Below are positions 4,953 to 38,214 of a stretch of 64,000 bases of DNA, one piece after another. The DNA lies in the NCBI GenBank assembly GCA_947453965.1, contig CANGIQ010000013.1:1-64000 (forward strand). Direction: 5' to 3'. The notes below the pieces were generated by a model. The model worked only from the letters and a program-made list of their open reading frames with translations, ran no database searches and was not told where the DNA came from. Source of the stretch: Comamonadaceae bacterium. Its GTDB lineage: Bacteria; Pseudomonadota; Gammaproteobacteria; Burkholderiales; Burkholderiaceae_C. Every line of letters starts with the position of its first letter. The first letter of the stretch is position 1. Both the position numbers and the translations under genes were made by a program.

Positions 4953-5043
<91 letters not shown>

Positions 5044-37907: not shown

Positions 37908-37982
37908 GTTCTGTACGAGGGATAGGGCGGCCGCCTCATACTGTTACAGAAATCGTTGGCCGCCCTATCCCTCGCACAGAAC
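37908..37982 (+). repeat. 75-nt hairpin unit 1 of an inverted pair
   Basis: The arms are 37908-37932 and 37958-37982, 25 bp with one A/C mismatch at 37915/37975. The loop holds a 23-nt core at 37934-37956 containing ACTGTTACAGAAATCG. The same core occurs in reverse complement in the second unit. The GAGGGAT/ATCCCTC part of the stem is shared with unit 2; the rest of the stem differs but stays paired. Confidence 0.85.
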
Positions 37983-38083
37983 TTGTGTTGGCTTGAGAAT
38001 GCTCAACGAGCGTAGCGAGTTGACAAGGCAAGCCATCACGCCACGCCAGAAATGCGTTGAACGCTATATCGCTTCGTCGCAGT

Positions 38084-38158
38084 CTTGGGGGATGAGGGAT
38101 GCGCGGGAGACGATTTCTGTAACAGTATGAGGAACCCGCGCATCCCTCATCCCCCAAG
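38084..38158 (-). repeat. 75-nt hairpin unit 2 of an inverted pair
   Basis: Perfect 24-bp arms at 38084-38107 and 38135-38158 enclose a 27-nt loop. The loop carries the reverse complement of the unit 1 core at 38110-38132. Unit length equals that of unit 1. Divergent stems with kept pairing suggest selection for structure, as in REP-type elements. Confidence 0.85.
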
Positions 38159-38214
38159 CGCGCCCAGCAAAAGCCAAAAACCAAAGCGAATACCAGCAAC
38201 GCCAGAGCAAAAAG

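Follow-up and report, generated by a model that had tools for sequence, protein, structure and literature searches.

The window analysed here, a stretch of 64,000 nt of a Comamonadaceae genome, contains two hairpin units in the spacer between the convergent genes panC and gpsA (Table 1). Unit B is folded from the minus strand and unit A from the plus strand, and their 5' sides face each other. A sequence-only reading of this DNA had described two 75-nt hairpins in opposite orientation, with an identical loop core and stems of 24-25 bp containing at most one mismatch, all of which was confirmed. The arms of unit B (37908-37932 and 37958-37982) comprise 25 nt and match at 96%, the single mismatch being a G.T wobble on the folded strand, and those of unit A (38084-38107 and 38135-38158) comprise 24 nt and match at 100%. 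Folded as DNA, the two strands reach -30.5 and -33.2 kcal/mol; z is near -10, and no shuffle out of 200 folded as stably (z from -9.4 to -12 for both hairpins against dinucleotide shuffles). A 22-nt loop-core pattern occurred at two places in the window and in none of 100 shuffles. Two details of the earlier description needed correction. GAGGGAT, named as a shared stem block, lies one column out of register under loop-based alignment (columns 24-30 versus 25-31) and is therefore not a conserved block, and only 13 of 24 left-arm positions differ between units A and B, rather than every stem position outside it. Elsewhere in the window, a tRNA-Ser (cga) at about 4954-5043 is the sole Rfam match at gathering scores.

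Table 1. Features of the panC-gpsA spacer and its flanking genes (positions in the window).
Feature	Position	Strand	Details
panC, convergent neighbour, 284 aa	37009..37863	+	ORF; name from the sequence-only reading
Hairpin unit B, 25-bp stem and structured loop	37908..37982	-	model R2, 80.1 bits, E 3.7e-18
Loop core of unit B, ACGATTT-CTG-TAA-CAG-TATGAGG	37934..37956	-	internal-loop bases conserved, inner helix partly covarying
Spacer between units B and A	37983..38083	.	
GCAG, a GYAG tag 5' of unit A	38079..38082	+	
Hairpin unit A, 24-bp stem and structured loop	38084..38158	+	model R2, 81 bits, E 2.2e-18
Loop core of unit A, identical to unit B core	38110..38132	+	
3' tail of unit A, CGCGCCCAGC	38159..38168	+	resembles tails of other A-type units
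gpsA, convergent neighbour, 337 aa	38215..39228	-	ORF; name from the sequence-only reading

We identified further copies in the same genome (G000; other genomes and loci are given G- and L-numbers). The 22-nt loop core with up to three mismatches was found at nine places, and at none in a reversed control. A first covariance model, built from 11 units of this genome, returned 29 matches at E≤10; once seven weaker opposite-strand echoes and one noise match (E 6.49) are left out, 21 units remain, distributed over 16 sites of which five hold two units, and 11 of the 21 are the sequences from which the model was built. Within the genus, 30 of 61 sampled genomes (G000 included) contained matches at E≤1, 23 of them at E≤1e-5, with up to 27 matches in a single genome, echoes still included. 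In an order-wide draw, five of 399 genomes matched at E≤0.001, a lower bound with 12 candidates scored per genome; all five belong to the same family, and four to other genera. The pair is thus part of a dispersed family, and not the isolated degenerate palindrome that the sequence-only reading had named as the alternative. At 80 public panC loci, model R2 matched two at E≤0.1. Model R1 additionally gave two matches that R2 did not repeat, a weak one in Roseateles depolymerans (L226, E 2.7e-5) and another at E 0.099. Judged by panC, Limnohabitans sp. Rim11 (71%) is the closest named isolate, and the genus is probably Limnohabitans. One contig of G008 (contig 3; L083, 253-1129) contains an array of six related units, five oriented one way and one the opposite.

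Searches for exact or near-exact copies returned nothing in several collections. The core pattern of G000 was absent from 60 relatives because these carry another tip, and the covariance model did detect their copies. We found no exact match to the 21-nt core of G000 in public genome contigs (a search from which its own and very near records were possibly excluded), none to the 26-nt tip of the relatives in IMG/VR, and none to the 311-bp pair in plasmids and phages. Our searches of the open-access literature yielded no description of Limnohabitans with REP elements or of Comamonadaceae with palindromic intergenic repeats, and a search of PMC3733652 gave no match for Limnohabitans, Comamona-, Polaromonas or Rhodoferax.

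We parsed 130 distinct units, orthologues included, requiring a core with at most three substitutions and at least 13 of 20 paired positions, a threshold that slightly favours paired stems and that dropped core-less model matches (e.g. L057, L060, L134, L141, L160 and L175). The stem measures 24-27 bp in 114 of the 130 units, under scoring lenient to G.U, and the loop core 23-26 nt, the search pattern itself having spanned about 23-28. For covariation we retained 42 units whose left arms differ at more than five of 24 places, among which some orthologues remain (L138/L179; L049/L158, one base out of register). In this set 94.4% of outer-stem cells are paired, with changes on both sides at all 24 outer pairs; the inner helix is 89.3% paired, with double changes in three of its four pairs; and the central pair of the loop is C-G in 36 units, U-A in six, and never broken. 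The covariation score was 0.886, compared to 0.195 (sd 0.013) in shuffled alignments and at most 0.175 with slid partners. The 28 pairs with double changes were equalled in three of 500 shuffles, and the other four measures in none. The first 11 units of G000 show double changes at 22 of 25 stem pairs even when taken alone. The internal loop has 10 invariant columns, with bases unpaired in the Watson-Crick sense (near-fixed as RAYGATTT on the 5' and YATGARG on the 3' side), and can be written as G.A, A.G, C-G, G.A, A.G, U.U, U-A, U.Y, in which the C-G/U-A exchange was counted and the remaining steps are putative. Selection for structure, as first proposed from the two hairpins, is thus borne out by covariation at all 24 stem pairs and the central loop pair: the tip retains its sequence, the long stem changes yet is nearly always paired, and it is the folded shape that is kept.

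We additionally identified units in frame inside leuS, inside uvrA at two places and inside a formate dehydrogenase alpha-like gene (names read from the protein sequences). At leuS, insert-like PGSS peptides occur in G000, G006 and G077, a different insert in G076, and none in the other 11 of 15 genomes. The first uvrA site is occupied in G000 and G011 and empty in the other 13 of 15, and the second is occupied in G000, G009, G033, G071, G073 and G081 and empty in the other eight of 14 (uvrA of G070 being split there). The unit at the formate dehydrogenase-like site is common to four genomes. The many relatives without a unit at the leuS and uvrA sites indicate that the element was mobile. Grouped by both flanks, the fetched loci fall into 24 site clusters, of which 19 are common to at least two genomes, and 11 of the 14 sites of G000 in this set are shared with other genomes; thus, individual copies have persisted for long, and present mobility is unproven. 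The four in-gene units of G000 (L058, L059, L061 and L062; C21, C22 and C17) encode in-frame linkers rich in Pro, Gly and Ser. In 12 of 15 rows (L319-L332) the open frame of uvrA in this genus comes to 1910-2007 aa, a usual UvrA being about half this length.

We also considered the idea that a stem arm is a host target copied at insertion. A stretch resembling one arm of the G000 insert in leuS of G065, and another resembling the outer part of an arm at the second uvrA site of G083, fit this idea and loss from an older copy equally well. The A stems at several sites are alike by eye, suggesting that stems travel with the element.

The mismatches within the stems are strongly asymmetric. The innermost 20 pairs of 124 units, 2480 pairs in all without the six units of the tandem array L083, include 146 G.U, 11 A.C and 37 other mismatches, with G.U:A.C ratios of 81:3 and 65:8 for units on the two locus strands. 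A first count, under scoring lenient to G.U at stem ends, had given 203:14. G000 by itself shows 17:2 (p=0.0007), the pooled p ignoring kinship. Since the departures are G.U and not A.C, one particular strand must be the folded one. Orthologous units tell the same: 155 comparisons, which are mutually dependent and exclude those with more than eight differing positions or another offset, contain 205 two-sided Watson-Crick changes, 250 one-sided changes between Watson-Crick and G.U, 13 one-sided changes to A.C, 51 to other mismatches and 32 changes of other kinds.

This asymmetry bears on whether the pairing is selected at all. Long inverted repeats are corrected by template switching, and such neutral upkeep could perfect the palindromes and generate covariation without selection on pairing. 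Arms can evidently exchange strands, as the stem-loops of L139 and L200 stand, by eye, in the opposite sense to their flanks when compared with orthologues, indicating that the tip can flip through its stem. Correction of this kind is strand-blind, however, and would yield neither the 146:11 excess of G.U nor the 250 one-sided G.U against 13 A.C changes at shared sites. It would also pair the internal-loop bases, which stay non-Watson-Crick across the 10 invariant columns. We therefore regard neutral upkeep as improbable; the G.U excess and the one-sided changes are what is expected from selection on one folded strand.

Whether that strand is RNA or DNA is a finer question. The hairpin might be a structured RNA element, a 3'-end stabiliser or protein-binding site in transcripts, with the repeat spread passively. 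G.U is tolerated better in RNA than in DNA, and its excess here, over A.C and over all other mismatches, is as in RNA; the central C-G pair is formed by the RNA fold alone; and a crude ORF caller puts many units some 20-60 nt downstream of a stop codon. Passages of PMC3733652 likewise interpret G.T pairing in REPs as pointing to a function at the RNA level. However, seven in-gene units at four sites (the four of G000 and three orthologues, four of the seven being one site) are antisense to their gene and still show a G.U:A.C ratio of 12:2, L092 being in the sense orientation. Units occur in both orientations, and in spacers that the same ORF caller places between convergent or co-directional genes and, in the L043 cluster and at L085, between divergent ones. 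The flipped stem-loops of L139 and L200 also speak against an RNA element, as does Rfam, whose only match in the window at gathering score is the tRNA; around the pair, 11 matches at E≤5, ten of them to microRNA models, all fall below gathering scores. The antisense units with their bias, and the pairs in all three kinds of spacer, fit DNA better than mRNA, and we consider an RNA element a serious but rather unlikely explanation. Ordinary bidirectional intrinsic terminators, to which a position between convergent panC and gpsA would be suited, are hardly credible, as no T-run follows either hairpin on either strand (by eye) and the identical loop type recurs at divergent and in-gene sites.

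In 39 of 40 two-unit loci, representing nine distinct site clusters, the units face outward, L200 alone reading in tandem (>>), and the tags lie inside, i.e. A units stand tail-to-tail. Of 82 A-type units, 64 have GYAG in their 5' flank (15 site clusters), compared to a mean of 10.6 in shuffled flanks; among the 42 B-type units the tag is present in four, the A/B split by a short tail motif misplacing some units. With the origin placed from dnaA and the terminus from sampled GC skew, and with L139 counted by its flanks despite the flipped tip, single units share one sense relative to replication in eight of ten cases in G081 and six of eight in G073, partly at the same sites. A strand-specific fold, a free stem sequence and fixed unpaired bases would also characterise attC-type recombination sites, folded single strands used by a tyrosine recombinase, and the six-unit array of G008 would suit such sites. 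The outward pairs, in contrast, are unlike cassette arrays, which makes attC-type sites a very improbable explanation.

Stems and tips have different histories. Left arms differ at 6.8 of 24 positions across species at one site (283 comparisons), compared to 13.2 between sites within a genome (831 comparisons), whereas tips over all genomes differ by 2.53 edits from orthologues and 2.84 from other sites in the same genome; the two units of a pair differ by 13.7 positions in the arm and 1.7 in the tip (40 pairs). Stem sequence is thus tied to the site, and tip sequence hardly at all. Taken genome by genome, tips in G081, G071, G073 and G076 resemble their orthologues more closely, and the distance within the genome is the smaller one in G033 (1.28 versus 2.11) and for the intergenic units of G000 (3.39 versus 4.43; 4.37 versus 4.43 with in-gene units added). 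Of 19 units of G000, 16 carry TATGA and 13 have a 23-nt core; of 83 units in G033, G071, G073, G076 and G081, 82 carry C in place of the first T and 72 have 26-nt cores. Across the 11 sites that G000 shares with other species, the T is present in 13 of its 16 units, and every unit of the other genomes has C save the four of G031 and G072, at one site. The description of a conserved loop on a diverged stem holds within G000; between species, the stem at one site can be nearly identical and the loop different (L044/L071/L080). At one site, the stems of G000, G009 and G011 are nearly identical and their three tips differ. Both units carry one tip in G011 and in G031. At panC-gpsA, the spacers of G071 and G081 are near-identical to each other. 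There the unit A stem of G000 differs from its orthologues (L138, L145, L179 and L188) at many pairs with pairing kept and, judged by eye, is similar to a stem from elsewhere (L043, L137).

Tips at old sites in the lineage of G000 have changed together, a pattern that could stem from co-evolution with a binding factor, from short tip conversion, or from renewed transfer into old sites. A bolder reading, which we think unlikely, is that loops, as cassettes independent of the stem, are replaced or re-selected in trans across the genome by an enzyme that exchanges or polices the 23-26 nt tip; if true, it would be concerted evolution of a hairpin tip, which the passages of PMC3733652 and PMC8266576 consulted do not describe. 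Against concerted tips speaks the slightly smaller tip distance to orthologues, both over all genomes and in G081, G071, G073 and G076.

We searched for an enzyme that might move the element. G000 encodes a single PF01797 gene, which matches the NCBIfam REP-associated tyrosine transposase model NF047646 (81.7 bits, cut-off 80) and contains HLH and YIDLNPV motifs. PF01797 genes are present in 22 of 23 carriers (the exception, G077, being 70% complete) and in 17 of 24 non-carriers, defined as genomes among G001-G036 without strong element matches (p=0.048, kinship ignored). PF01797 also covers ordinary IS200-type genes, making this a loose test, and the association is weak. None of 42 PF01797 loci (30 + 12, including one for each of the 22 carriers with a RAYT) has a unit beside the gene, within flanks of about 1.5 kb where the contig allowed. 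In a wider stretch of G000 (L041) the nearest unit lies 4 kb from the RAYT gene, and one unit site about 4 kb from it is shared by G000, G071, G073 and G081, for which we roughly estimate a probability of ~6% by chance. Nineteen of 22 carriers and five of eight non-carriers compared have the same methyltransferase-like gene at their RAYT locus, suggesting that RAYT is inherited like a household gene, as passages of PMC8266576 report for TnpAREP. Of the idea that the hairpins are repeats moved by a RAYT elsewhere in the genome, the presence of the gene was thus confirmed, and a role as mover finds no support at the 42 loci.

Taking these data together, we favour, at a little under six chances in ten, the reading that the two hairpins represent a single copy of a non-autonomous, REP-like mobile element that folds from single-stranded DNA, with RAYT as the best candidate for its mover. 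Its working form would be a folded single DNA strand, in which a 24-25 bp stem of largely free sequence carries a short inner helix and the near-fixed internal loop, where G.A/A.G steps enclose a C-G or U-A pair. Loop and fold would be recognised by an enzyme specific to one strand, for which the only PF01797 gene of the genome, a RAYT of the HUH/Y1 type, is the best candidate, and which would cut beside the folded element and insert it elsewhere. Inherited copies would subsequently survive, for the most part between genes, and their stems would drift by compensated changes because only pairing matters. Against a REP/RAYT reading stand the lack of a unit at all 42 RAYT loci, the PF01797 genes in 17 of 24 non-carriers, the shared RAYT neighbour in five of eight non-carriers, and the absence of GYAG from 18 of the 82 A-type and 38 of the 42 B-type units. 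The 130 parsed hairpins provide a natural set, orthologues included, in which a varied stem goes with a constant fold and a few conserved loop bases, showing what a recognising factor may read. The lineage-wide tip change at old shared sites additionally offers a test case for the co-evolution of a household-like transposase and its elements.

Among known systems, integron attC sites are alike in principle, depending on the fold, on unpaired bases and on the use of a single strand (passages of PMC8266576), and differ in that the hairpins here stand in inverted pairs, with no cassettes seen. The RPE/CGTC palindromes of Rickettsia and alpha-proteobacteria share the in-frame insertion into conserved genes as short peptides, and differ, according to passages of PMC3733652, in their 8-9 bp stems and 4-5 nt loops; their CGTC end tag was not seen (uncounted) in our hairpins. 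The likeness to REPs and REPINs suspected in the sequence-only reading is well founded. As in GTAG-type REPs, we find palindromic hairpins with G.T pairs in their stems, inverted dimers (outward in 39 of the 40 loci with two units), a mostly intergenic distribution, insertions in uvrA and tRNA-synthetase genes, both known to harbour REPs (passages of PMC3733652), and a RAYT encoded in the genome. A degenerate GYAG stands 5' of most A units, a partial likeness to the GTAG tag that few B units show. The stems, in contrast, mostly measure 24-27 bp and are of largely free sequence, about twice the published maximum (5-13 bp, with loops of 2-20 nt; Table 1 of PMC3733652); the 23-26 nt loop is structured and holds conserved bases, the units number 21 in G000, and, in contrast to REPtrons, none of 42 RAYT loci has an adjoining unit. 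The element thus resembles a REP in its workings, and we do not class it as one because of its stem length and the RAYT flanks. The hairpin family is real, structure-selected and formerly mobile, and represents a new REP-like variant with a long stem and a structured tip, widening the REP idea to elements of this form.
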